Shown here: positions 20,792-34,323 of the stretch, piece after piece
Layout of the letters: every line of letters starts with the position of its first letter
Position numbering within the stretch: position 1 is the first letter of the stretch
Assembly: GCF_014696715.1 (NCBI RefSeq)
Contig: NZ_JACJQO010000005.1
Location: forward strand, 1,250,352 to 1,297,280
Reading direction: 5' to 3'
Length of the DNA stretch: 46,929 bases
Origin: Pseudanabaena sp. FACHB-2040
Lineage (GTDB): Bacteria > Cyanobacteriota > Cyanobacteriia > Phormidesmidales > Phormidesmidaceae
Position numbers and translations under genes: made by a program
Notes under the pieces: model-generated
Database searches by the model: none
Seen by the model: only the letters and a program-made list of their open reading frames with translations
Told to the model about the DNA's origin: nothing

Positions 20792-21238
20792 AGAAGGAAC
20801 CCTAATTTGAAAGGATAAAATTTGGGGTTGAAACTCGCAGCTCTCTAGCTGATTGTTCTCAGTAGCTGCATCAAGATAAAACTTACTGGCTTTCGAAAAC
20901 TATCCCCAGAAAAATTTCGCAAGGCCTCAAACTTCAAGACATTAAAGACTAGACGGCCTATGGGAATCAGTCACAAAAGTCAATTAAACAACAGGGAACA
21001 TATCCAAGACTGGAAGACGTTGTTTATTGTTTCCTGTCTTATGCTGAGCGTAACAGGAATTTCAGAACGGGTTGTGAGGTCACGATAAACAAAGCCTCTC
21101 TCTATGTGAAAACCCTGTAAAAAGCGCATTGAGGTAGATTTTCGCCCCTCAAAAAATAGTCCTCCAAGCATCTCAGAAGGGAGTTGGAGGAGCATTTTTT
21201 ATCAAGATTTCGTGGGTTGAAGGAGCGATCGTAGCTCT
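20792..21238. other. Spacer upstream of the nucleotide-sugar operon
   Basis: This stretch of about 450 bases is AT-rich and contains the promoter side of rfbF and the strong terminator at 21153-21198. An open frame of 71 codons on the minus strand runs across the terminator hairpin and is not believed. Nothing else is recognised. Confidence 0.5.
21153..21198. terminator. Bidirectional-looking terminator closing the olefin synthase operon
   Basis: TCCTCCAA (21160-21167) pairs exactly with TTGGAGGA (21184-21191) around a 16-base loop. The minus-strand reading is followed by CTATTTTTTGAGG, and the plus-strand reading by GCATTTTTTATC, so both directions have a T-tract. It lies about 50 bases after the stop of the leftward gene at 21239, as expected for the end of the ols operon. 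Confidence 0.8.
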
Positions 21239-22171
21239 CTACGTGATACTTACATGAATTTCTGAAATATCCCTAGTTAGGGACAAGACATCTTTGGGGT
21301 GAACCCGTAGAATATATGCTCCCTTTTCTGTCATGGCTTGAGTGGTGTGCTGCGTCTGGGTGACGGGGTACCAGTCCAAGGGAAAGCAGTCTCTGGTGTA
21401 GAGGCTCAAGAAAAGGCTGTGGGTGTTGAGCAGATCTGGGGGAACCTCTAGTCTGACCGCTTCGTCTGTATTTAAGGCACCGTAGTAGAACTGCGTCTCG
21501 GGGTTGGGCACTGGAAGAAAGGTCTGCTTGACGAAGGCTGAGGGGAGCCAACGGCGGTAGCGCAGCAGGGGATAGACATAGAAGTTCAGCCAGGTGTAAA
21601 GCCAGCCCCGACGGTGAACTAGGTTTCGGTAGAACTGGTTGAAGTTAGCAGGAGCCGTCAGCGGTTGAGCGGCCAAGGCTGGCTGGTCATCAACCTGAAT
21701 CGCGGGCAGCTGAATGGGGTCACTCCACTGATAATGGCGAACACCAACCAGATAGCGACCTGGGGGCAGCTCAATACTCTGCCAGTCGCGATCGGTAGGG
21801 ATGCTGAGGGAGCTGACGCTGGTGATAGTTTTGTAGCCCTGGAGGGTATAGACTACCGCTGTCCAAGACTTGGCCGAGCGATTGAGAGCGGTCAAGTCTA
21901 GAGACAGGGAGCTGCTGACGCTGAAGGGGCCTGCGATCGCAATCAGCGAGTGCAGGTTCCAGCGGGCTCGGCTCATGGTCCACAGCAGCTTGACTGGCCC
22001 CTTGAGAAACTCCGCAGACACCACCTGCCACTCTGGCTGGGAGCGCTGGCTAGCTGGGTTGTAGTAGCGGCTGACGAAAGTCAATGTCCACTTAACAACC
22101 CGAGAAAACAGGTAAGACAACACCCCTAGAGGGACTTCCCACAGCGCTTCGAGTTCAAATCCCTGCTTCAT
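21239..22171 (-). CDS. Unknown protein co-encoded with the olefin synthase
   Basis: This 310-residue protein is not an enzyme I recognise; it recalls cyanobacterial proteins labelled DUF6208, but from memory only. The N-terminal 35 residues are hydrophobic and may contact the membrane (LGVLSYLFSRVVKWTLTFVS). The region around 70-170 is beta-rich, and an aromatic/basic stretch (RGWLYTWLNFYVYPLLRYRRWLP) near 190-215 could be a second membrane-associated segment. No catalytic motif stands out. The start codon overlaps the Ols stop (ATGA), so the two are translationally coupled. A role in handling, exporting or membrane-targeting of the alkene product is inference. Confidence 0.8.
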   Translation of the reverse strand: MKQGFELEALWEVPLGVLSYLFSRVVKWTLTFVSRYYNPASQRSQPEWQVVSAEFLKGPVKLLWTMSRARWNLHSLIAIAGPFSVSSSLSLDLTALNRSAKSWTAVVYTLQGYKTITSVSSLSIPTDRDWQSIELPPGRYLVGVRHYQWSDPIQLPAIQVDDQPALAAQPLTAPANFNQFYRNLVHRRGWLYTWLNFYVYPLLRYRRWLPSAFVKQTFLPVPNPETQFYYGALNTDEAVRLEVPPDLLNTHSLFLSLYTRDCFPLDWYPVTQTQHTTQAMTEKGAYILRVHPKDVLSLTRDISEIHVSIT

Positions 22172-25100
22172 GAATGATTTCCTGAGAGTTGATTCAGCAT
22201 CAGTGCCGCGATTTGGCCGGGCACTTCAGCAGGCAGATTGTGGCCGCCCTCTAGCATAATCCGCTGAGCTTGGGGCAGCGCTTCTTGTTGCAGGGCCAGA
22301 TCTTCAGGCCGGTTGAACTGGCTGTGGCTGCCGTAGACCAGAAGAGTCGGCATCTGGATTTGCTGCAGCAGCTGTTCGTACTGCTGGCGGCTGAAGGCAC
22401 CGCCGATGCCAAGACTGGTGCGGGTCTGCAGGCGAGCATCCCAGCGCCAGCGAACGCCCTCTGCATGGGGTTCGATCAGCCGCTCTGCCAGCTTTAGAGC
22501 GGCGGCTTCGGGCAGAGCCGAGTTAAACTGCCGCAGCCGGGCCGCAGCCGCAGCCAGATCGGGGAAGGTGGGATGGGTGGGAGCCTGAGCCAGGTAACCC
22601 AAGTGCGCCGTTAGCTGACTAGCCACCGATTCAGCCGCACCTGTACCGGGCACAACTGGTTCAATTAGCATTAGCTGCTGGAAGCGTTCAGGCCGGAGGC
22701 TGGCCAGGGTCGCTGCCAGCACTGCCCCCATCGAGTGACCCACCAAAACCAAGGGCGTCTCCGGCAGATCCCGCAGCAGAGCATCGATATCGCCCAGGAA
22801 GTCGAGGAACTGGTAGCTGCTGTCGAGGCCAACATGGCTGGAGCGGCCATGCCCACGCAGGTCAGGAGCAATAATGCGGTAGCCTCGGTCGGCCAGGGGA
22901 GATGCAATCGCATCCCACGCTGCCCCCTGGTCTAAAATGCCGTGCAGACAGAGAATTAACTGCCCTGCTGATAGCCCCCAAGTGCAGAGGCCGGTCTGCA
23001 GCCCGCGTAGCGTGATTGTTTCCTCGCGCATTGTGGCTAGCGGTTCACCAACTTGAGGCAGCTCTGGGCGAGGTGTAGTAGCCGCTGTAGATTCTCGCGG
23101 CAGCTCGTAGCCAAAGTCGGCAGATAGGGCCTGGGTCGGTGCAGTCAGAGTCAAGGGCAGCTCGACCGCTCGCCACGCCTCTGCTAGATTGGCCTCAATT
23201 CGGCGGCGCTGCCGGAAGTTAGGGTCATCAACCGCCATTGAGTTAGCGCGAACACCATCAGTCATGCGCTGGCCTTCGTAAGGCGTGAGCACAGCCGGAT
23301 CAAAGGGTAGCTCTAAGAACGCACAGAGCTGCCGCATAGCGGTTTCTGGGTCGGTGACTAGGTCTTCGTAACGCAACACCTGCTGCCGCTGTGGATCGAC
23401 CTGCTGCAGGAAGGTTTGAATGTTGCGATTGCTAACGTCCCAGACCTGTTCGGCCAGCTGATACGGGTTTTCCGGCTCCAGGTTAAAGATTTTGTGCATC
23501 CGATTCTTTACAAAGGAGTCGATTACCGCGTAAGGATGCCGCACCAGATGAATGAATCTAGCATTTTCAAACAGCAGTTCAGACCGCTGCAGGGTTGCTA
23601 GGCTGAGGCTGTAGGTGGGCGACTTGTCCACCAAGAGACGATCTCCGGCTAGCTGCTGCAGCTTGTCATAGATAGCTTGAACCGGGGCGTTGTGCTCCAT
23701 CCACTCACTCACTAGGCTTTGAGTGGCATCGGCATCTAGCTGCATTAGCTCCATGAGTGCCCGCTGCAGTCCTTCCTCCAGATAGCTACCGCCTAGAGCT
23801 GCATGGCGATCGCCCAATGTATCAAAGGGCAGTAAATGCAGTTCGGGCGGGCAGAACAGCTGGGGATGACCCGCCAGCATCACGCGCAGCAGGGTAGAGC
23901 CGGAGCGGGGGCTGGAGAGCAAAAAGACCATGCTGCGGTTGCGCTGGGGGGGGGCTTCTGGAAGGGCATGGCTGGTCCAGAAGCCTTCGGGGAGGGGGTC
24001 GGAGGGTGGAGGGGTAGAGGGGTGGAGGGTTAGAGGAGTGGGGGTGGGGTGCGATCGCACCAATTCCTTAGCCATGTACTGGGCTAGGGCTTGGATTGTT
24101 GGGTGGGCAAAGACTTCGCGGGGGTACAGGGTAATTTTCAAATCTCGCTTGCAGAGATTTAGCAAGTCCACTGTCATTAAGGAGTCGATACCTAGATCCA
24201 GCAGGGGTCGATCTACCGGGGCTGTGCCCTGCAAGCCCAAAACCTGGCCCACCTCTCGCTGCAGGTAGGTAGTCAGTTCGGCTTCTCTGTCCGGGGTGGG
24301 CAGCGTCAGTAGGTGGGCAAGCAGCTCTGGCTGTTTGGGGACTGCTGGGCTGGCACTTGCTGCGGTCGGGGCCGCTGGCTGGGCCTGTTTCTCAAGCACT
24401 CGGCTGAGCAGAGGAGGCAGATCAAAGGGTGAGCTTTGTGCGATCGCAGCCCAGTCAATCGCTGCTAGTCCTAAATGGGGTTGGGGTGCCGTTAGCGCTT
24501 GGCGCAGCAGGGCCAGCCCCCGCTCTGAGGAGAGCTTTTGCAGGCCGCGTAGGCTTTCTGTTCCGGCGTCTTCGCCAGCAGCCATACCTGCACCAGCCCA
24601 AGGGCCCCAGCTAAGACTTTGAGCGGGCAAGCCCTGCTGCTGTCGGTAGTGGGCCAGCGCATCTAAAACGGCATTAGCGGCAGCATAGTTTCCTTGCCCT
24701 GGCGAACCGAGCAGGGAGGCAATGGAAGAGAAACTGACAAACCAGTCAAGCGCATCTGCCAGGGTAGCTTGATGGAGATTCCAGGCTCCCTCTACTTTGG
24801 CCGTCATCACTTTAGTAAACTGAACGGCAGTGAGATTTAGCAGCGTGCTATCGGCCAGGGTGCCTGCTGCGTGGAGCACGCCTCGCAGGGGTGGAAGCTG
24901 CTGTCGCACTCGCTGGAGCAGCGCCTCCAGTGGGGCCGCCTTGGCGACATCTGCTTGTTCAACCCATACCGCAGTCCCGGTCTGTCGCAGAGCTTCTAGT
25001 TCGGGCTGATGCTGGGCTGAGACTCCGCTACGGCTAACTAGAACCAGGGAGCGTGCCCCCTGAGCGACCAGCCAGCGAGCTACTATCAGGCCCAAAGCTC

Positions 25101-28100
25101 CGGTTCCCCCGGTAATCAGGTAGGTTCCTTCGCCGTGGACCGAGAGTGGGGCAGAAGCCTCAGGTAAGGTCACGGTTTCTAGCCGAGCGACGTGCCGCTG
25201 CCCTTGGCGAAAAGCAGCTTCGTCCTCCCCATCCTGGGCAAGCAGATGCTGCACTAGCACTTGGGCAGACTGCGCTGGACTGTCTAGGGCATCTGCATCT
25301 AGATCGACTAGCCCACCCCACAGTTCAGGATGCTCTATTCGCAGGGTGCGCCCCAAGCCCCAAAGAGCGGCTTGGCTGGGATGGGTCAAGTCAGTTTGCT
25401 GGGTGACGGCCTGAGCCGATTGGGTAACTAGCCAGAGCTGAGGCAGGGGTTGCCACGAACCTGTCAATAGGTGCTGCAGTAGCGTCAGCAGCGCCAGACT
25501 GGCGCTGTGGTCTGCTGGGTTGGCACGATCTGATGTGTTGGCCAAACCCCATAGGTAGAGAGCGCCGCTCCAGGGCGCATCAGCATCGGCAGATAGGCTC
25601 TGGAAGAGTTGCGAGTAGTCCTTAGGCTGGGTGGGCGAGAGCTGAAACTGGTCGGTGGCCAGCCTGCAGAAGCCGTCCCCTGGCCTAATCTGAATGGCCT
25701 GGCCACCGGCAGCCTGAATTTGGGCTGCTAGGGCCTCGCCTAAACCATTAGGGTCAGAGAATATCAGCCATCGCCCGCTGATCGCTGGGTTTGCAGAGGT
25801 TACTAGGGGTTGAGGTTGCCAGGCCAGCTGGTAGGCATTCTGAGCAAAAGATTGCTCAGGGACTGTTCTAACTTGAGCCGCAGGTAGCTCGGTTGTCGGG
25901 GGCAGAGCCACAGGCAAGTCAATCCAGTAGCGCTGCCGCTGGAAGGGATAGGTAGGCAGGGAGAGCTTGCGCCGCTGGTAAGGCTGATCAAAACCGGCCC
26001 AGCTGATCTTGACGCCCTCGCAGTAGAGACAACCCAGGCTAGCCAGCAGCGTTTCCCACTCATCGGTGCCTTTGCGGAGAGAGGGTAGCCACTGCATTGC
26101 CGGATCGGCGATGCAGCGTTTGCCCATAGCGCTCAGGATAGGCTGCGGGCCAATTTCCAGAAAGACTCGGTAGCCCGCCTGCTGCAGGGTTGCGATCGCA
26201 TCGCCAAACCGCACTGGCTCCCGCGCCTGACGTCGCCAGTAGGCTCCATCTAGCACTTCTCCCGCTGCTAAAAATTGCCCGGTCAGGTTCGACACTAAGG
26301 GAATTTGAGCAGGCTGACAGGGAACGCGCCGGGCCGTGTGCTCAAACAGATTCAGCACCGGATCCATCAGGGGTGAGTGAAAAGCGTGGGACACATCCAA
26401 GGAGCGGCTGCCAATGCCCCGCTCCCGCAGCTGAATTAGCACCTGCTGCACGTCCGCTTTAACTCCGGCAATGACGGTATTTTCAGGGCCGTTGAGAGTG
26501 GCTAGGGAGACTGTGTCGGCAAACGGTGCGATCGCTTTTGCTACGGTGGCTTCATCAGCAAAGATCGCGGCCATGCCGCCGCCTGCGGGCAGAGACTGCA
26601 TCAGCTTGCCTCGCTGGGCGATCAGCCGCAGCCCGTCCTCCAAGCTAAATACGCCAGCGATGCAGGCCGCGACATACTCACCGACGCTGTGCCCCAATAC
26701 GGCCGCAGGTTCTACCCCCCAGGTGCGCCAGAGCTGGGCCAGGGCATATTCAATGGCAAACAGCGCGGGCTGGGTGTACTGGGTCTGGCTCAAATCTCCG
26801 TCGTCTGCCTCAAACAGCACGGCCAGCAGAGATCGACTGAGATAGGGCCGCAGCAGCTCGTCGCAGCGCTCCAGGGCAGCGCGAAAGTCAGGCTGAGTTT
26901 CGTAGAGCTGTCGCCCCATCGCCCAGTACTGCGACCCTTGCCCGGTAAAGAGAAACACGACTTCCGGTGCCGTCGCCTCAGAGGCCTGGCCTAGGTGCCC
27001 CGTGGTTAGGGAGTCTCCGGCGGCGAGGGGGGCTAGCTGATCGGCTAACTGGGTAGGGCTGGTGCCTGCGATCGCAAGCCGGTGAGAAAACGCCGTTCTG
27101 CCCACGTTGGCTGTGTAGCAGATAGAGGCCAAGTCAGCCGCATCGGCCGTCTTGAGAAAAGCACTGAATTGATGAGCCTGATCGCGCAGGGCAACGGCGG
27201 TCGGTGCAGACAGCGTCAGCAGATGGCGGGGCCGCTCTGGCTGGGCAGCTACCGGCTTAATGTCTGGCACCGCCTGGAGCACCATATGGGCATTGGAGCC
27301 GCCAAAGCTAAAGGAGCTAACCCCGGCCACCGGCAGCTGGCCTGAGTCGGTCCAGGGTTCCTGAACCTGCTGCACTCGGAGCGGCAGCCGATCAAAGGGA
27401 ATGTAGGGATTGGGGGTATGGAAGTGAATGCTGGGCACCAGGGTGCGGCGCTTCAGGCAGAGGGCAACTTTGATTAGGCTGGCAACCCCGGCAGCCGCCT
27501 CTGTGTGACCAATGTTGCTCTTGAGCGAGCCAATTCGCACCGGGTTTTGCAAAGACCGTTCAGACTGAAAGACATTGCCCAGAGCTTTGGCTTCAATGGG
27601 GTCACCGAGCAGGGTGCCGGTGCCGTGGGCTTCGATGTACTCTACCTGACGCAACGCCACGCCTGCCTGCTGATAGGCCTGCCGCAGCACCGCCTCTTGG
27701 GCTTCGCGATTGGGCGCAGTGAGGCCGTTGGTGCGGCCATCCTGGTTGACAGCACTGCCTCGGATCAGGGCATAGATGCGATCGCCGTCGGCCAACGCCT
27801 GAGACAGCCGCTTCAGGACCACTACGCCCACCCCTTCTGATCGCACAAAGCCGTTGGCCGAAGCATCAAACGCCTTGCAGTGACCGTCGGGGGAAAGAGC
27901 CGTCAGCTTGCTAAAGCCTACCGTCAGCGCTGGCGTCAAAATCAGATTGACGCCCCCTGCTAGGGCCAGGTCCGTTTCTCGCCGCCACAGGCTCTGACAG
28001 GCCAGATGAGCCGCTACTAGGGAAGAAGAACAGGCCGTATCAATGCTGAGGCTAGGCCCGCGCAGGTTGAGCAGGTAAGACACCCGATTGGCCAGCATGG

Positions 28101-28632
28101 TCGAGGCCAGACCAGTGGTCGTGTAGGTGCCGATGGTCTGAGAGCCGTGCAGCAGCAGCTGACCGTAGTCTAGGGTAGAAGATCCGGCAAACACACCGGT
28201 CTGGCTGCCGCCTAGCTGCTGCGGGACAATCCCAGCATCTTCCAGAGCCTCCCAGACAACCTCTAGAAACAGGCGCTGCTGCGGATCGATGTAGGGCACT
28301 TCGCGGGGAGCGATGCCAAAAAACTCAGGGTCGAACTGATCTACCTGGTCTAAAAAGCCACCCCAGCGGCAATAGCTTTTGCCCGGTGCTGCTGGATCTT
28401 CATCGTAGAAAGTCTCGACATCCCACCGGTCGGGGGGCACTTCCCGCACCGCATCGTGGCCTTCGCACAGCAGCTGCCAAAACGCCCGAGGATTCTCTGC
28501 ACCCGGCAAACGGCAGCCCAGACCCACAATCGCAATGGGTTCGGGCAAACCTTTCTTCTTTTGCAGCTCTATTTCTAATAGCAGCCGCTTCTCTGGCGAA
28601 AGATTGGCAATTCGCCGCGCGAGATCCTCCAC
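22168..28632 (-). CDS. ols: Olefin synthase, extension and termination part (KS-AT-KR-ACP-ST-TE)
   Basis: This 2154-residue type I polyketide synthase has, in order: an N-terminal docking-like helix (1-30); ketosynthase (32-455; Cys201, His336, His376); malonyl-type acyltransferase (555-850; Ser649, HAFH 749-752); ketoreductase (950-1400; TGGTGALG at 1174, Tyr1316); carrier protein (Ser1484); sulfotransferase (1565-1840; SSPRSGST); and thioesterase (1880-2150; Ser1967, His2131). No dehydratase or enoylreductase is present. This is the Ols pathway: one malonyl extension, reduction to a beta-hydroxyacyl, sulfation, then hydrolysis with decarboxylation to a terminal alkene. The start is GTG at 28632, preceded by AGGAG. 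In Synechococcus PCC 7002 the loading part is fused to it; here it is separate. Confidence 0.96.
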   Translation of the reverse strand: MEDLARRIANLSPEKRLLLEIELQKKKGLPEPIAIVGLGCRLPGAENPRAFWQLLCEGHDAVREVPPDRWDVETFYDEDPAAPGKSYCRWGGFLDQVDQFDPEFFGIAPREVPYIDPQQRLFLEVVWEALEDAGIVPQQLGGSQTGVFAGSSTLDYGQLLLHGSQTIGTYTTTGLASTMLANRVSYLLNLRGPSLSIDTACSSSLVAAHLACQSLWRRETDLALAGGVNLILTPALTVGFSKLTALSPDGHCKAFDASANGFVRSEGVGVVVLKRLSQALADGDRIYALIRGSAVNQDGRTNGLTAPNREAQEAVLRQAYQQAGVALRQVEYIEAHGTGTLLGDPIEAKALGNVFQSERSLQNPVRIGSLKSNIGHTEAAAGVASLIKVALCLKRRTLVPSIHFHTPNPYIPFDRLPLRVQQVQEPWTDSGQLPVAGVSSFSFGGSNAHMVLQAVPDIKPVAAQPERPRHLLTLSAPTAVALRDQAHQFSAFLKTADAADLASICYTANVGRTAFSHRLAIAGTSPTQLADQLAPLAAGDSLTTGHLGQASEATAPEVVFLFTGQGSQYWAMGRQLYETQPDFRAALERCDELLRPYLSRSLLAVLFEADDGDLSQTQYTQPALFAIEYALAQLWRTWGVEPAAVLGHSVGEYVAACIAGVFSLEDGLRLIAQRGKLMQSLPAGGGMAAIFADEATVAKAIAPFADTVSLATLNGPENTVIAGVKADVQQVLIQLRERGIGSRSLDVSHAFHSPLMDPVLNLFEHTARRVPCQPAQIPLVSNLTGQFLAAGEVLDGAYWRRQAREPVRFGDAIATLQQAGYRVFLEIGPQPILSAMGKRCIADPAMQWLPSLRKGTDEWETLLASLGCLYCEGVKISWAGFDQPYQRRKLSLPTYPFQRQRYWIDLPVALPPTTELPAAQVRTVPEQSFAQNAYQLAWQPQPLVTSANPAISGRWLIFSDPNGLGEALAAQIQAAGGQAIQIRPGDGFCRLATDQFQLSPTQPKDYSQLFQSLSADADAPWSGALYLWGLANTSDRANPADHSASLALLTLLQHLLTGSWQPLPQLWLVTQSAQAVTQQTDLTHPSQAALWGLGRTLRIEHPELWGGLVDLDADALDSPAQSAQVLVQHLLAQDGEDEAAFRQGQRHVARLETVTLPEASAPLSVHGEGTYLITGGTGALGLIVARWLVAQGARSLVLVSRSGVSAQHQPELEALRQTGTAVWVEQADVAKAAPLEALLQRVRQQLPPLRGVLHAAGTLADSTLLNLTAVQFTKVMTAKVEGAWNLHQATLADALDWFVSFSSIASLLGSPGQGNYAAANAVLDALAHYRQQQGLPAQSLSWGPWAGAGMAAGEDAGTESLRGLQKLSSERGLALLRQALTAPQPHLGLAAIDWAAIAQSSPFDLPPLLSRVLEKQAQPAAPTAASASPAVPKQPELLAHLLTLPTPDREAELTTYLQREVGQVLGLQGTAPVDRPLLDLGIDSLMTVDLLNLCKRDLKITLYPREVFAHPTIQALAQYMAKELVRSHPTPTPLTLHPSTPPPSDPLPEGFWTSHALPEAPPQRNRSMVFLLSSPRSGSTLLRVMLAGHPQLFCPPELHLLPFDTLGDRHAALGGSYLEEGLQRALMELMQLDADATQSLVSEWMEHNAPVQAIYDKLQQLAGDRLLVDKSPTYSLSLATLQRSELLFENARFIHLVRHPYAVIDSFVKNRMHKIFNLEPENPYQLAEQVWDVSNRNIQTFLQQVDPQRQQVLRYEDLVTDPETAMRQLCAFLELPFDPAVLTPYEGQRMTDGVRANSMAVDDPNFRQRRRIEANLAEAWRAVELPLTLTAPTQALSADFGYELPRESTAATTPRPELPQVGEPLATMREETITLRGLQTGLCTWGLSAGQLILCLHGILDQGAAWDAIASPLADRGYRIIAPDLRGHGRSSHVGLDSSYQFLDFLGDIDALLRDLPETPLVLVGHSMGAVLAATLASLRPERFQQLMLIEPVVPGTGAAESVASQLTAHLGYLAQAPTHPTFPDLAAAAARLRQFNSALPEAAALKLAERLIEPHAEGVRWRWDARLQTRTSLGIGGAFSRQQYEQLLQQIQMPTLLVYGSHSQFNRPEDLALQQEALPQAQRIMLEGGHNLPAEVPGQIAALMLNQLSGNHS
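23990..24050. repeat. G-rich repeat / G-quadruplex motif inside the ols gene
   Basis: On the plus strand (template of ols) GGAGGGTGGAGGGGTAGAGG and its neighbours repeat in 7-8 base steps, giving at least five runs of three or more G with loops of 3-5 bases. In the protein this is the Pro/Thr-rich linker between the carrier protein and the sulfotransferase (about residues 1528-1548). It resembles the heptamer repeats near 10700. Confidence 0.6.
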
Positions 28633-28651: not shown

Positions 28652-30922
28652 CTAGTTATTTTGCTGGCCCAGCAGCGCTTGAATTTCTGCGTCTGACAGC
28701 ATTTCTAATTCTCTGACGAGCTGATCGACCTCAATGTCCCCCATCTCAGGAGCCGATTCAGTCACAACAGACGCAGTTGCGGGCGTTTCCTGGCGGGCCA
28801 AGTGGCGAGCCAGGGCTTCAATGGTGGGGTATTCGTAGGCTAGAGTTGGCTCCAGGGTGAGGCCCAGAGCAGTTTCTAGAGCATCTGCCAACTCCACTGC
28901 AGTGACAGAGTCCAAGCCATACTCGGCAAAGGGCCGCCGGACATCAATAGTGGCTTCAGGAGTTTGTAGAGCCTGAGCCAGCCAGCGCACCATCCAACGC
29001 TGAATGTCCTCAGCACTAGAGAGGGTGGCGGCTTTGACCACCGGGCCGGGGGACGGCGATGCGATCGCATCTGCAAGCCGCTCCTTAAACACCGCACTAC
29101 TCGCCTGCCGCTCCTCAGGCTCCTCAAGGACGCCTTCCGACTCCTCAAACGATAGGCTAGAGAGCGTCTCCGATTCCCAGGTATAGACCGCATCGAGCTG
29201 TCGGTCCAAAAAGCCGCTGCGACAGAGAAAGCGCTGAATCTTACCGCTAGAGGTCTTGGGCAAACTGGTGGTCTTGAGCAGCACAATGGCCGACACCTGC
29301 AGCTCATGCTGCTCGGCCACACTGCGGCGGATAGCACTACAGACGGCCTCATGATCGGCCTTACGCAGCTGACTGCGCTCAAGTTCCTGCACAACCACTA
29401 GCTGCTCCGCATTGCCTAAATCGACCGAAAAAGCGGCCCCAGCGCCCGCTCGTAGAGCTGGGTGGGCCGCTTCTACTGTTGCTTCAATGTCTTGGGGATA
29501 GTGGTTGCGGCCCCGGATAATAATGAGATCCTTGAGCCGACCAGTGACATAGAGCTGTCCTTGGTGTAAAAAGCCTAGATCGCCCGTTCGCAGGAAAGGC
29601 CCTGTGCCGCCCTCCACCAGTTCTGCCGCGAAGCTGTACTCGGTTGTATCCGGTCGCTTCCAGTAACCCTGAGCGGTACTGCGAGAATGGGTGACCCAGA
29701 TTTCTCCAATCATGTCTTCCGGGCAGGGCTGCCGGGTTTGCGGTTCGACGATCTGCACCTGCTCTGGGCTGGCTGGCTGGCCGCAGCCTACCAGCCATCG
29801 CACCTCATGGTTTTCCTGCGGTGGCTTCACCTGGTTGAGCTGCAGGGCTTTGGCGTCAGCTTGGCGCACCTGCGGCGGCTGCCCTTTCTCAGTACCAGTC
29901 ACCATCAGTGTGGTTTCGGCCATGCCGTAGCAGGGGTAAAACGACTCCCAGCGAAAGCCAAAATTACCAAAAGTTTCGACAAACCGCTGCAGAGTTTCGT
30001 GGAGAATCGGCTCTGCGCCGCTAAAGGCCAAGGTCCAGCTCGACAGGTCTAGATCTTGCCACTGATCGGGCGTGGTTTTACGCACACAGAGGTCATAGGC
30101 AAAATTGGGGCCGCCGCTGGTGGTCACCCCGTAGTGGGAGATAGCCTGTAGCCAGCGAATGGGCTTTTGCAGAAAAGCCACCGGGGGCATGAGCGTCATC
30201 GGAGCACCGACATAGAGCGGCTGCAATAGCCCTCCCACCAGCCCCATATCGTGGTAAGGCGGCAGCCATGAGACGCCCGAACTGGCGGGAGTATCTTGAA
30301 AGAACTCATTGATCAGGCTGGAGTTGTGCAGCAGGTTGTCGTGGCTGATCATGACGCCCTTGGGCGCGGCTGTTGAACCTGAGGTGTACTGCAGCAGGGC
30401 CAAACTCTCTGCCCCGATGCCGGGTCGCTGCCAGGCATCTGATAGCTGCTCATTTAGAGCATCGGTGCTGAGCCAGTAGAGCGATCGCAACTCTGGGCAC
30501 TCAGCAAACCGCTGCTCTAGCTTAGAAAGCACAGCTTCTTGGGTAAGGGCCACCGTCGCGCCTGAATCTTGGATGATGGCCTGGATCCGCTGCAGCGAGC
30601 GGTTGGGTCGGGGCGGATAGGCCGGCACTGCGATCGCACCTGCATACAGGCAGCCAAAGAAAGCCGCCACATAGTCTAGCCCCGCCGGATACAGCAGCAC
30701 CACCCGCTGCCCCTGGCACTGGAGTTCGTTTAGCAGAGTTGCGATCGCCCTAGCCCGGCAGTCAAGATCGCGATAGGTCATGAGCACCTCATCGCCAACC
30801 ACCCCCTCCGGCAAAAACCGATAGGCTATTTGATTAGGTTGCTCTTGGGCTCGCCAGTGCAGCAGATCGACGAAAGTGGTTAGCTCAGGAGATATCTTAG
30901 CCGGGCCTCTACTCATGGACAC
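28652..30922 (-). CDS. ols: Olefin synthase loading protein: fatty acyl-AMP ligase with carrier protein
   Basis: The 756-residue protein activates a free fatty acid as acyl-AMP and loads it on its own carrier domain. The FAAL part (about 1-580) has YTSGSTAAPKGV (179-190), WLPPYHDMGLVGG, YGMAETTL, TGDLGFL (Asp448) and the lysine of SSGKIQR (Lys561). The carrier domain follows, with phosphopantetheine Ser672 (GLDSV). The last 25 residues (VDQLVRELEMLSDAEIQALL) form an amphipathic helix typical of a docking segment. The gene ends 19 bases before the GTG of the next one, so the two are co-translated partners. In PCC 7002 the two are one polypeptide. Confidence 0.95.
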   Translation of the reverse strand: MSMSRGPAKISPELTTFVDLLHWRAQEQPNQIAYRFLPEGVVGDEVLMTYRDLDCRARAIATLLNELQCQGQRVVLLYPAGLDYVAAFFGCLYAGAIAVPAYPPRPNRSLQRIQAIIQDSGATVALTQEAVLSKLEQRFAECPELRSLYWLSTDALNEQLSDAWQRPGIGAESLALLQYTSGSTAAPKGVMISHDNLLHNSSLINEFFQDTPASSGVSWLPPYHDMGLVGGLLQPLYVGAPMTLMPPVAFLQKPIRWLQAISHYGVTTSGGPNFAYDLCVRKTTPDQWQDLDLSSWTLAFSGAEPILHETLQRFVETFGNFGFRWESFYPCYGMAETTLMVTGTEKGQPPQVRQADAKALQLNQVKPPQENHEVRWLVGCGQPASPEQVQIVEPQTRQPCPEDMIGEIWVTHSRSTAQGYWKRPDTTEYSFAAELVEGGTGPFLRTGDLGFLHQGQLYVTGRLKDLIIIRGRNHYPQDIEATVEAAHPALRAGAGAAFSVDLGNAEQLVVVQELERSQLRKADHEAVCSAIRRSVAEQHELQVSAIVLLKTTSLPKTSSGKIQRFLCRSGFLDRQLDAVYTWESETLSSLSFEESEGVLEEPEERQASSAVFKERLADAIASPSPGPVVKAATLSSAEDIQRWMVRWLAQALQTPEATIDVRRPFAEYGLDSVTAVELADALETALGLTLEPTLAYEYPTIEALARHLARQETPATASVVTESAPEMGDIEVDQLVRELEMLSDAEIQALLGQQNN

Positions 30923-31552
30923 GCTTCTCTATAACCTTGATTTAGTGCTTTCTTTCTAAAACTCACTCTACAGTTGCGACCCTTGGGCCGCAGCAGTCTT
31001 CCAAGCAAAACCGTTGACCAGGCTGATTTAGCCCAACGACCTGCCACAAGTCTGCACTCTGCAAAACGCCTTAAATATATCCACGACCCATTCCAAGCAA
31101 CTCAGTTCCAGCCTCAGGTCAAACAACAGCCCGAAATTCAGAATAATCCTAGATCCTATTGTCCTAGATTTAAGGCTGAACTGCCTCAAATACCTCAGTC
31201 TATAGAAGCGCGATAAGTTGTTTTTCAGTATAAAGGGCGAGATTGAGCCCAGTGCTGGCAGCCATAGGAGATTCTGTCAGCGGGCGAAGCCAAGGTCAGA
31301 AGCCGCTCGTTCTAAATGGAACCCTAACGCCACCTGACATCGAGCAATTTTAGACACAGCCGAGAATAGCGGGCATTTTGAGCATTAGGTTAGATGTAGA
31401 TCTATTACTCCTCACCAGCAAGAGTTTTTGCCTATACCAACAGGGGGAATTCCAGAAGTGGTAAACTAGCATCTCACCAGGGGCGCAAGTGATGCAGTGA
31501 ACTAGATGAACTGGTGTTTCGGGCTTTCCCAGTGATTACTGATGGTTGAGGC
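30923..31552. other. Divergent spacer between ols operon and accA
   Basis: About 630 bases separate the two divergent start codons, enough for both promoters and long leaders. Several short frames exist but none has a convincing start or composition. The text ACTCCTCACCAG at 31407-31418 only partly resembles the Yfr1 core and is not accepted. I see no clear -35/-10 pair. Confidence 0.5.
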
Positions 31553-32536
31553 ATGGCAACAACTGAGCGACGACCCATTCTGCTGGATTTTGAGAAACCG
31601 CTGGCTGAGCTAGAGGCCCGAATTGCCCAAATCCGGGATCTGGCTGAGGAGAACGAAGTTGATGTTTCAGCCGAAATTCGCAAACTAGAGTCGCGCGCCA
31701 ATCAGCTGCGGCAGGAAATTTTCACCAGCCTCACCCCGGCCCAGCGCCTACAGGTCGCCCGCCACCCTCGCCGTCCTAGTACCCTGGACTACATTCAGGC
31801 GATGACCGACGAATGGATCGAACTGCATGGCGATCGGCGCACCGGCAAAGACGATCCGGCTCTAGTCGGCGGCGTAGCTCGATTGCAGGGCCGTCCAGTA
31901 GTTATGCTAGGGCACCAAAAGGGCCGAGACACTAAAGACAACGTGGTTCGCAATTTTGGCATGGCTTCCCCTGGGGGTTACCGCAAAGCGATGCGGCTGA
32001 TGGAGCACGCCAACCGCTTCAAAATGCCGATTATCACGTTTATTGATACGCCAGGAGCCTACCCTGGCTACGAAGCTGAGGAGATGGGCCAGGGAGAAGC
32101 AATCGCCTACAACCTACGGGAAATGTTTGCCCTGGAGGTGCCTATTTTGTGCACTGTCATTGGAGAGGGCGGTTCTGGAGGAGCCTTGGGGATTGGTGTG
32201 GGGGACCGGCTGATTATGTTTGAGCACTCGGTCTACACGGTGGCTAGCCCCGAAGCCTGTGCCGCAATTCTCTGGAAAGATGCCTCTCGTGCCGCTCAGG
32301 CAGCTGAAGCACTCAAAATTACGGCCTGGGATCTGAAAAATCTGGGCATTTTAGACGACCTGCTGCCAGAGCCGGTCGGCGGTGCTCATGCCGATCCGCT
32401 TAAAGCAGCAACCATTCTCAAAGACGCCTTGCTGCGGCACCTAGAGGATCTGTCTAAGCTGTCACCGCAGGAGCTCCAGCGTCTTCGCTATGAGAAGTTT
32501 CGGCAAATTGGCGTTTTCTCTGAAACCGTGGGCTAG
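31553..32536 (+). CDS. accA: Acetyl-CoA carboxylase, carboxyltransferase alpha subunit
   Basis: The 327-residue subunit, with AccD, transfers CO2 from biotin to acetyl-CoA, giving malonyl-CoA, the first committed step of fatty-acid synthesis. Typical motifs are [14 protein letters not shown] at the start, [35 protein letters not shown], and [19 protein letters not shown]. Length is normal for bacteria. The neighbouring ols operon uses malonyl-CoA as its extender, so the two opposite operons share a metabolite. accD is not in the window, as usual in cyanobacteria where the subunits are scattered. Confidence 0.98.
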
Positions 32537-32796
32537 CGCCCCGACTGGTGCCCGTTTTAAGCGGCCGTTAATCTCTTTGGGTTCCAAGACGGAGTATTCT
32601 AGCGAGGAGACCGAACTTCGGGAATCAGACAAAAGCTTCTAATATTCTCGTAACGTTTGTTAACATATTCCATAGCAAGCGGCGATCAGGGCTGCAGTTG
32701 AGTCATGTTCTCCATTGAGATCTCCTGGCTCTAGGTTTCCTGAGTCCGTACCGTTGCCGCTTTCCCCACAAACGGTGTGTTGATTTGGACAATTGG

Positions 32797-33522
32797 ATGA
32801 ATCCCAGTACCCCCCACCGCGCTCTGATTACGGGCGCTAGTAGCGGTATCGGCAGGGCTACTGCGATCGCATTTGCAAAGTCAGGCTTTGACGTAGCGCT
32901 GGTCAGCCGCTCCCTAGAGAAGCTACAGGCCGTCGTTGCCGAACTAGCAGATACCGGCATTAAGGCCAAAGCCTATGCAGTTGATCTGGCAGATGTGGAC
33001 CACGTTTCTGCTGAGATTCATCAGGTGTTGGCAGATTTCGGGACCGTCGACGTGTTGGTTAACTGCGCCGGTATGGGCTACACAGGCTCGCTGGCAACTA
33101 TGTCCCTAGCTGACTGGCAGCAGGTCATAGGGCTCAACTTAACCAGCATCTTTCAGTGCATTCAGGCCGTTTTACCTGATATGCGGCAGCAGCACCGGGG
33201 CACCATTGTTAACATTGCCTCGATTGCTGGGAAGTCTGCTTTCCCGGATTGGGGCGCTTACAGCGTCAGCAAAGCCGGTCTGATGTCCTTGTCCCGCGTT
33301 TTGGCCGTTGAAGAGCGCGCACATGGGATCCGAGTTGTGACTGTTTCTCCAGGGGCCGTGAATACGGCTATTTGGGATACCGCCACCGTGCAGGCAGATT
33401 TCGATCGCTCGCGCATGCTCACGCCGGAGGTGGTGGCCCAAACCATCTTGAATACCGTTGTCCTGCCCGAGTATGCCGTCATTGAGGACCTGACACTCAT
33501 GCCCAGCGGTGGAGCCTTTTAG
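32797..33522 (+). CDS. Short-chain dehydrogenase/reductase
   Basis: This classical SDR of 241 residues has the NAD(P) motif TGASSGIG (12-19), NCAGMG, and the catalytic set Ser, Tyr and Lys in NIASIAGKSAF and YSVSK. I start at the ATG at 32797 rather than a TTG four codons upstream, since the ATG gives a normal SDR N-terminus. It lies 81 bases before folE on the same strand. An SDR beside a GTP cyclohydrolase could be a sepiapterin- or dihydropterin-type reductase; a 3-oxoacyl-ACP reductase-like role is the other common annotation. The substrate is not visible from the sequence. Confidence 0.88.
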   Translation: MNPSTPHRALITGASSGIGRATAIAFAKSGFDVALVSRSLEKLQAVVAELADTGIKAKAYAVDLADVDHVSAEIHQVLADFGTVDVLVNCAGMGYTGSLATMSLADWQQVIGLNLTSIFQCIQAVLPDMRQQHRGTIVNIASIAGKSAFPDWGAYSVSKAGLMSLSRVLAVEERAHGIRVVTVSPGAVNTAIWDTATVQADFDRSRMLTPEVVAQTILNTVVLPEYAVIEDLTLMPSGGAF

Positions 33523-33603
33523 GTCAAGCTGCCGCCAGGGTATCGTCAGTCACAAATGATGGCTTGACTTTCTTGTGTTTATTTGGAGTTACAAAGAATC
33601 ACT

Positions 33604-34323
33604 ATGACTATTGCGTCATCAAATGGCTTCAACGGCAATCCAACCGCAACTCCTCTAGGCAGCAGCGGTGCCAAAGAGGTTCAGCCGGTAGTTCGCCCTG
33701 ATCGGACCACCAGCCACGGTCACGAGGCCTACCCCTATCCTATCCCCGAAACGTCTCAGGACGATATGCAGGACGCCGTCCACACCATTCTGCGATCAGT
33801 CGGGGAAGACCCAGAGCGGGAGGGGCTGCTCAAAACTCCTAAGCGGGTTGCGGAAGCTATGCGCTTTCTCACCAGCGGTTATCAGCAGTCACTCGACGAT
33901 TTGCTGAACGGGGCCATTTTTGACGAAGGTCATAACGAGATGGTGCTGGTGCGAGACATTAACCTGTTTAGCCTGTGCGAGCACCACATGCTGCCGTTTA
34001 TGGGCCGCGCCCACGTTGCCTACATTCCCAATCAGAAGGTGGTGGGCCTAAGCAAGCTCGCCCGCATTGTGGAGATGTACTCCCGTCGTCTGCAGGTGCA
34101 GGAGCGGCTAACCCGTCAGGTGGCTGAGGCGATTCAGGAGATTCTAGAGCCTCAGGGAGTGGCAGTGGTGGTAGAAGCCAGCCACATGTGTATGGTCATG
34201 CGCGGCGTGCAAAAGCCTGGTTCATGGACGGTGACCAGCGCTATGTTGGGCTCTTTCCAGGATGACTCCAAAACCCGTGAAGAGTTCTTGAGCCTGATTC
34301 GCCACCAGCCCTCATTCTTCTAA
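33604..34323 (+). CDS. folE: GTP cyclohydrolase I
   Basis: The 239-residue enzyme converts GTP to dihydroneopterin triphosphate, the first step of folate and pterin synthesis. The zinc ligands are seen in LCEHHMLPF (Cys125, His128) and SHMCMVMRG (Cys196). The motif [20 protein letters not shown] and the [14 protein letters not shown] region are typical. The N-terminus has an extra, low-complexity segment of about 50 residues. I use the ATG at 33604; a TTG seven codons upstream is possible but adds nothing. A strong terminator follows. Confidence 0.96.

Follow-up and report, generated by a model that had tools for sequence, protein, structure and literature searches.

DUF6208, a protein family associated with sulfotransferase-containing release modules of olefin and polyketide synthases

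Results

The third gene of the ols operon encodes a DUF6208 protein

The present study concerns the third gene of an operon for the olefin synthase Ols in the cyanobacterium Pseudanabaena sp. FACHB-2040. The operon lies in a window of 46,929 nt (contig NZ_JACJQO010000005.1, positions 1,250,352 to 1,297,280), by which we mean the whole stretch of DNA that was analyzed. The gene product belongs to DUF6208 (PF19713), a Pfam family without an assigned function, and our comparisons tie this family to release modules that contain a sulfotransferase (ST) domain, beyond Ols alkenes as such. In Ols the ST is followed by a thioesterase (TE). The features of the locus are as follows.

21239..22171, minus strand: DUF6208 gene, third of the ols operon; ATG start, 310 residues; Pfam PF19713, E 1.9e-87
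22168..22171, minus strand: 4-nt ATGA overlap between the stop of the Ols polyketide synthase (PKS) gene and the DUF6208 start
22168..28632, minus strand: Ols part 2, KS-AT-KR-ACP-ST-TE by domain scan, 2154 residues
28652..30922, minus strand: Ols part 1, fatty acyl-AMP ligase (FAAL)-ACP, 756 residues; AMP-binding and PP-binding matches
21161..21179, minus strand: terminator-like hairpin with U run, 3' of the ols operon
31553..34323, plus strand: accA, short-chain dehydrogenase (SDR) and folE, divergent neighbors of ols, recognized by eye

The window thus carries the cyanobacterial Ols pathway (FAAL-ACP-KS-AT-KR-ACP-ST-TE) with DUF6208 in the same operon. The FAAL-ACP gene, whose name is taken from the Ols literature and whose scan returned AMP-binding and PP-binding domains, precedes the PKS gene by 19 nt, so that Ols is split over two genes. 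PMC3903477 describes this split form for Moorea and Leptolyngbya PCC 6406. Like the rest of the Ols literature cited here, it is represented by excerpts, and none of them mentions a further Ols component. The preliminary description had recognized the third gene and its ATGA overlap with the Ols stop, although it named no strand and the end it gave, 22175, lies 4 nt too far. It had also placed the operon terminator after the gene, where a hairpin with a U run is indeed found about 60 nt beyond the DUF6208 stop codon (fold of 21135-21215, minus strand: -21 kcal/mol, z -2.43); as the terminator scan overall gave 11 sites against 9.1 expected from shuffling, what supports this hairpin is its position and fold. 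From this arrangement we infer that the DUF6208 gene is cotranscribed with ols. Among 45 homologous pairs that were measured, 33 have the DUF6208 start less than 300 nt from where the ST gene ends, and a 4-nt overlap recurs in seven of the 45 (start codons chosen by script), two of them gammaproteobacterial and one a near-copy of the window.

The window protein scores 293.5 bits against a family cut-off of 25, with residues 8-299 aligned to positions 5-295 of the 316-position profile, and is thus a full-length member. A scan of GTDB genomes provided 80 named DUF6208 loci, on which domain searches were run, and 74 of these were aligned with the window protein (alignment A2); left out were L162 (broken frame), L142 (388 residues), L084 (a near-copy of the window), L098, L106 and L123. 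All 75 sequences match PF19713 and they span five phyla (phyla here and below are those of the database records). Sixteen columns are invariant, three of them arginines, and the invariant positions include R70-W71-N72, Y108, Y140, R145, Y147 and R289, whereas H74 is replaced by N in three sequences. Among the sequences that keep these invariant residues are some from other phyla that are only 25-39% identical to the window protein. Scans of the window protein and the 75 homologs against Pfam and NCBIfam gave no match to an enzyme family: Pfam returned nothing convincing for the homologs besides DUF6208, and NCBIfam had no match to the window protein and, for the homologs, only a scatter of rows at chance level. 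The absence of a catalytic motif, noted in the preliminary description, therefore stands as far as enzyme families go and has to be set beside the 16 invariant columns. Homology to a solved structure was considered and rejected, the 75-sequence profile giving a single chance-level row among PDB chains (5iku, E 1.2). DUF6208 is named in no paper of the literature searched.

DUF6208 co-occurs with ST-TE in cyanobacteria

Of the 386 genomes of a phylum sample, 12 yielded full-length Ols-type ST-TE and 13 yielded DUF6208, all 12 lying inside the 13; among the 63 genomes of an order sample, 19 had ST-TE, 19 had DUF6208 and 18 had both. Fisher's tests gave p 7e-22 (phylum) and 1e-13 (order), values that ignore shared ancestry and are not taken as probabilities. 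The phylum scan scored three ST-TE candidates per genome and may have missed a copy. Among the 12 paired genomes of the phylum sample, the DUF6208 gene and ST-TE are adjacent in three (G000, G193, G420) and lie 14 and 21 kb apart in two (G322 and G360, respectively). They are unlinked in the other seven: G118, G120, G145, G207 and G248 have both on a single contig, 215 kb to 1.55 Mb apart, and G132 and G272 have them on different contigs. In Picosynechococcus sp. PCC 7117 the distance between the DUF6208 gene and ols exceeds 1 Mb, and in Leptolyngbya PCC 6406 (L065, G046) it exceeds 2 Mb. Co-occurrence thus outlives the loss of linkage, which indicates a functional tie, in counts that ignore shared ancestry and with unlinked cases that fall in few clades. 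The preliminary description had taken the gene for a tight partner of Ols with a role unexplained by the known Ols domains, and the co-occurrence bears this out: rather than being found mostly without ols, DUF6208 is accompanied by ST-TE in 12 of 13 phylum-sample and 18 of 19 order-sample genomes, and 12 of 12 and 18 of 19 ST-TE genomes contain DUF6208 irrespective of linkage, as would be expected of an Ols component.

Two further sets of genomes agree with this picture. The first comprises 35 genomes behind the named loci (33 loci with no ST in the examined DNA and two loci with ST followed by a condensation domain, ST-C; at least six repeat sample genomes), 32 of which have an ST match at E <= 1e-20, as ST-TE in 26 (three in pieces) and as ST only in six. 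The second, of 20 genomes, contains 12 full ST-TE loci in 10 genomes, and DUF6208 lies within the 1.5-kb flanks of 10 of the 12; at L194 it is a partial 28% match on the opposite strand, with another copy about 3 kb further, and the two loci with no flanking DUF6208, L187 and L188, are 55 and 781 nt from contig ends. Both exceptions of the order sample lie at contig ends. G047 has DUF6208 without ST-TE in a genome that is 73% complete, with the gene starting 317 nt from a contig end, and in G026, which has ST-TE without DUF6208, the match starts at base 3 of the contig. The three of the 35 genomes with no ST match are G784, which is the same locus as G047, G793, whose DUF6208 gene is 998 nt from a contig end, and G797, a metagenome-assembled genome (MAG) that offers no further explanation. 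In G464, which has ST matches without TE, DUF6208 is 283 nt from a contig end.

The alternative alkane pathway is marked by ADO, which is present in 176 of the 386 phylum-sample and 40 of the 63 order-sample genomes. A tabulation of DUF6208 against ST-TE and ADO, of the kind that the preliminary description had suggested, showed that of the 19 order-sample genomes with DUF6208, 18 have ST-TE and none has ADO, the mutual exclusion expected of an Ols component. ADO is found in three of the 13 DUF6208 genomes of the phylum sample (G219, G322, G360; two matches each in G219 and G322), all of which have another PKS cluster with no FAAL seen. Fisher's tests gave p 0.15 for the phylum, which is not significant, and 1e-12 for the order, with shared ancestry again ignored and the values not used as probabilities.

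DUF6208 accompanies ST-release modules other than Ols

DUF6208 comes after ST-TE in many cyanobacteria, and it does so not only in ols operons but also after the ST-TE of multi-module PKSs, on a Calothrix plasmid, in Okeania and in second clusters of Symploca; no FAAL was seen at these loci within the roughly 10 kb of DNA examined. Outside the cyanobacteria, DUF6208 follows ST-TE in a member of the Planctomycetota (L135). A second planctomycete (L150) and two assemblies of gammaproteobacteria (L160, L161) also carry DUF6208, but there the domain after the ST is a condensation domain, not a thioesterase. The ST-C order is also found with DUF6208 in a verrucomicrobial MAG (L154), where the ST-C reading frame is broken, and in Sporocytophaga (Bacteroidota) some 24 kb separate DUF6208 from a PKS that has ST-C at its end. 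L150, L160 and L161 all retain the condensation-domain motif HHxxxDG. In L160 and L161 a lone ST-C protein (761 and 806 residues) stands ahead of DUF6208 with a 4-nt overlap. DUF6208 is found in one of 295 genomes of the family of L161 (Alteromonadaceae per the database record), that of L161 itself, a rarity that fits horizontal gain. Because DUF6208 occurs with multi-module ST-TE PKSs and with ST-C modules, it is not specific to Ols alkenes. Moreover, since it follows the ST before either TE or C, it shows no dependence on TE as such.

ST-TE release to a terminal alkene, as in Ols, is also used by CurM of curacin A and HlaB of haliamide (PMC3903477, PMC6274090). The excerpted haliamide account (PMC6274090) mentions no DUF6208 gene, and no paper of the literature searched names curacin, CurN and CurM together.

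Some side observations concern these loci. The two-gene ST-C and DUF6208 operons of the uncultured gammaproteobacteria (L160:6587-9783, L161:7584-10921) have no KS match in the locus. Genes that by eye resemble adenosine 5'-phosphosulfate (APS) kinase lie near ST-bearing clusters (L059:3767-4333 in G360, L172:15707-16285, L175:1828-2406, L176:6590-7204) and plausibly supply 3'-phosphoadenosine 5'-phosphosulfate (PAPS) to the sulfotransferase. DUF6208 is also present on a contig labeled Candidatus Gracilibacteria (L125), from a 6-Mb assembly in which a full ST-TE was found; this is probably a misnamed cyanobacterial MAG. A link to the gene for the nonadecadiene desaturase was also considered; the four scanned neighbors of the unlinked Picosynechococcus DUF6208 gene are nuclease-domain, peptidase M15, TrkA and TrkH genes, with no desaturase among these four.

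By contrast, not every ST is accompanied by DUF6208. Six phylum-sample genomes (G081, G104, G157, G311, G366, G388) have shorter, weaker ST matches and no DUF6208. The scanned proteins of G104 and G157 place the ST in mid-chain of a nonribosomal peptide synthetase (NRPS), as FkbM-ACP-ST-C-A-PCP-C and ACP-ST-C-A-PCP, respectively, and the ST proteins of G081 and G311 resemble them by start and length of the open reading frame. Thus, not every ST needs DUF6208, and the partner of DUF6208 is a sulfotransferase at the releasing end of a synthase.

DUF6208 is inherited with its synthase

Trees of DUF6208 and of the ST, together with Mantel tests, were computed for the 47 of the 80 loci that have an ST match, and the main groups of the two trees agree. 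A second PKS type (L136, L141, L144, L152, L157, L158) forms a clade in both, with supports of 100 and 98; L136 has a FAAL-like match at its edge, and the other five were examined over at most 10 kb upstream. Four ST-C rows group outside the ST-TE rows in both trees, on long branches that the program flagged. Symploca SIO1C2 and SIO2C1 each carry two ST-TE/DUF6208 pairs, the second of which groups in both trees with clusters of Okeania, Calothrix and Nostoc and not with the genome's own Ols pair. The Symploca copies therefore group by PKS type, and DUF6208 follows the synthase rather than the species. The trees conflict in places: the ST of the Symploca Ols pairs stands beside the second PKS type while the corresponding DUF6208 proteins stand with Coleofasciculus and its neighbors, and the positions of L135, L138, L139 and L156 differ as well. 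When DUF6208 distances were compared with those of ST, TE, KS and FAAL, the Mantel correlations were 0.81, 0.79, 0.72 and 0.85 (n = 47, 42, 31 and 22). As these values do not discriminate among domains, the argument for co-inheritance uses the Symploca paralogs alone.

Predicted structure

An AlphaFold2 model of the window protein, built with the 75 sequences, has pLDDT 92.1 and pTM 0.88 and consists of a helix (7-37), a β-sandwich, a helical insert (177-218) and a second β-sandwich, where "sandwich" is our reading of strand order and fold matches. The distant Sporocytophaga homolog gave a similar order of elements (pLDDT 86.6, pTM 0.86). The model bears out the β-rich core of the preliminary description and half of its hydrophobic ends: residues 18-36 of the N-terminal helix are amphipathic (mean hydrophobicity 0.15, moment 0.51; family means 0.31 and 0.43), as one would expect if the protein lies on a membrane, whereas the C terminus ends in a β-strand.

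A fold search, also suggested there, led to a family resemblance but to no function. The window model gave best VIA Z values of 10.6, 9.4, 8.9 and 8.8 over 219-244 residues (rmsd 5.1-6.8), the next being 6.1, and the Sporocytophaga model gave 10.6, 8.7, 8.7 and 8.1, the next being 5.4; the same four entries lead for both (6ans, 3vb9, 3u07, 2p3y). The resemblance is moderate, since according to the note on the tool models without a clear relative reach best Z values of 7-8. Entries 3u07 (VPA0106) and 2p3y/3vb9 (VPA0735), but not 6ans, are tied by sequence to proteins carrying the Pfam family DUF1214, the structural-neighbor family presumably also being that named DUF1254. DUF1254/DUF1214 proteins are thus like DUF6208 in their predicted two-domain β-sandwich fold, a resemblance that is not proof of descent, and unlike it in sequence, no relationship being detected by hhalign (probability 0.3% against eight DUF1214 proteins); neither family is among the 25 of 28 families listed for the 75 DUF6208 members at E <= 1. 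Titles of papers naming DUF1254 or DUF1214 make no function evident. With no detectable sequence relationship and no family function, the fold gives kinship at most. No lipid-transfer or lipid-binding fold was recognized among the fold-search rows listed, which does not exclude one.

Discussion

Collectively, these comparisons suggest that DUF6208 is probably an overlooked working part of the terminal-alkene synthase machinery. The association with ST-release modules is observed directly in gene content, gene order and trees; the mechanism that we infer goes further. DUF6208 would be a dedicated accessory of polyketide and fatty-acid synthases that end in an Ols/CurM-type ST with a TE or condensation domain. 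It would rest on the cytoplasmic face of the membrane via its N-terminal amphipathic helix, dock at the release end of the synthase, receive the long greasy sulfated chain or the released product, and pass it to the bilayer so that the synthase is not blocked; such a protein would be needed in the cell, although ST and TE could carry out their chemistry as such without it. Its presence where a greasy chain is released and its absence where the ST is in mid-chain favor a release-end role. That its job is tied to the sulfotransferase or release end and a greasy chain is more likely than that it serves one particular hydrocarbon. For a membrane-surface accessory that takes over the chain or product, proposed from sequence and a predicted model, our confidence is a little short of even.

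Several observations weigh against this proposal. In G219, the phylum-sample genome with DUF6208 but no ST-TE (all of its candidates were scored), DUF6208 heads a PKS cluster that yielded no ST; a TubC_N-thioesterase and a leucine-carboxyl-methyltransferase-like protein stand at the place of ST-TE in the related G322 cluster. Moorena bouillonii and Limnofasciculus have an AMP-ligase-ACP-ST-C protein with no adjoining DUF6208, although each holds DUF6208 elsewhere. Mantel correlations as high for FAAL as for ST pick out no single domain, and the best structural neighbors are uncharacterized and tell no function. Finally, the excerpts of PMC3903477 report that the STs of CurM and Ols both took substrates leading to long-chain hydrocarbons, which suggests that the ST works without DUF6208. 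The proposal of the preliminary description that the protein handles the alkene does not hold as worded, since the family also accompanies multi-module ST-TE PKSs, ST-C modules and the G219 cluster without an ST. As separate observations, the related PKS clusters of G322 and G219 that DUF6208 heads (L058, L061, L078) have EF-hand proteins upstream, and the AMP-ligase-ACP-ST-C proteins, an architecture for which we know of no counterpart, are located as follows.

L198:4025-8476: AMP-ligase-ACP-ST-C type protein of Moorena bouillonii (scanned)
L202:8179-12552: the same type in Limnofasciculus (alike by domain matches); the two have about 1,460-1,480 residues

The published activity of the CurM and Ols STs argues against an essential catalytic role of DUF6208, an alternative in which the protein would use its invariant arginines and aromatic residues. 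DUF6208 might take the sulfated intermediate, or by-products of it, as its target, for example by binding sulfate or 3'-phosphoadenosine 5'-phosphate (PAP) or by aiding elimination, and it would then make sense that R70, W71, N72, Y108, Y140, R145, Y147 and R289 are identical in 75 of 75 sequences, even at 25-39% identity, and that the protein follows the ST whichever domain comes next. We nevertheless consider catalysis unlikely, given that no enzyme family matches, that H74 is N in three of the 75 sequences, that DUF6208 is retained in G219, where no ST was found, and that mid-chain NRPS STs occur without it. Less probable again is a folding or scaffolding partner that keeps the megasynthase stable or anchored at the membrane with no contact to the chain. 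Such a partner would be compatible with the translational overlap that some genomes show between the PKS gene and DUF6208, with the agreement of the DUF6208 tree with that of its ST and with the amphipathic helix, but a stabilizer need not be limited to ST-release modules, and the gammaproteobacterial partners, at 761 and 806 residues, are small ST-C proteins, not megasynthases. The gene does adjoin ols in many genomes, as a conserved neighbor carried along by chance would; co-occurrence in the seven of 12 phylum-sample genomes in which the genes are unlinked, and an association across five phyla, refute such hitchhiking unless the unlinked co-occurrence is a sampling artifact, and make it very improbable.

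The release-end accessory has a stronger form, in which DUF6208 is a generally required membrane component of ST-dependent release and neither ST-TE nor ST-C can off-load long insoluble chains without it. We regard this as doubtful. If it is true, then the gammaproteobacterial two-gene ST-C/DUF6208 operon would be a minimal, undescribed route from ordinary 3-hydroxyacyl thioesters to terminal alkenes or sulfated lipids. The link of PF19713 to ST-release modules is contributed by the present comparisons, and in the excerpted literature Ols is described as one multidomain enzyme; a second protein that goes with its release module across five phyla means that the pathway as described may be incomplete. 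DUF6208 is also a specific gene to include when Ols is transferred to another host to produce 1-alkenes. Because the Picosynechococcus gene is unlinked from ols, it can be deleted without polar effects, and the exit of a newly made hydrocarbon from a soluble synthase becomes directly testable through DUF6208.

The genomic address of ols bears on its relation to the alternative alkane pathway. In 12 of the 13 judged genomes of the window organism's family, ols adjoins accA, mostly with SDR and folE next (the window, G005, G009, G022, G023, G024, G025, G032, G033, G041, G046 and G058; the exception is G039); six further ols loci are too near contig ends to judge (G008, G010, G026, G027, G037, G049). 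The order has 40 ADO genomes; 11 ADO loci were examined, and 10 of these loci lie near accA and folE, nine with SDR. The loci on which this comparison draws are the window (28652-34323), L254-L264, L266, L267, L269-L271 and L278. In Leptolyngbya PCC 6406 (L265, L278; G046), whose ols was considered a likely horizontal transfer by GC content in the excerpts of PMC3903477, ols also adjoins accA. An ado-aar-accA-SDR neighborhood is reported in the excerpts of PMC4094844, whose text contains neither "ols" nor "olefin." Thus, the ols operon occupies the accA-side place where relatives in the family carry ado, and this swap of pathways at one address may explain why ols and ado rarely co-occur in the family of the window organism.

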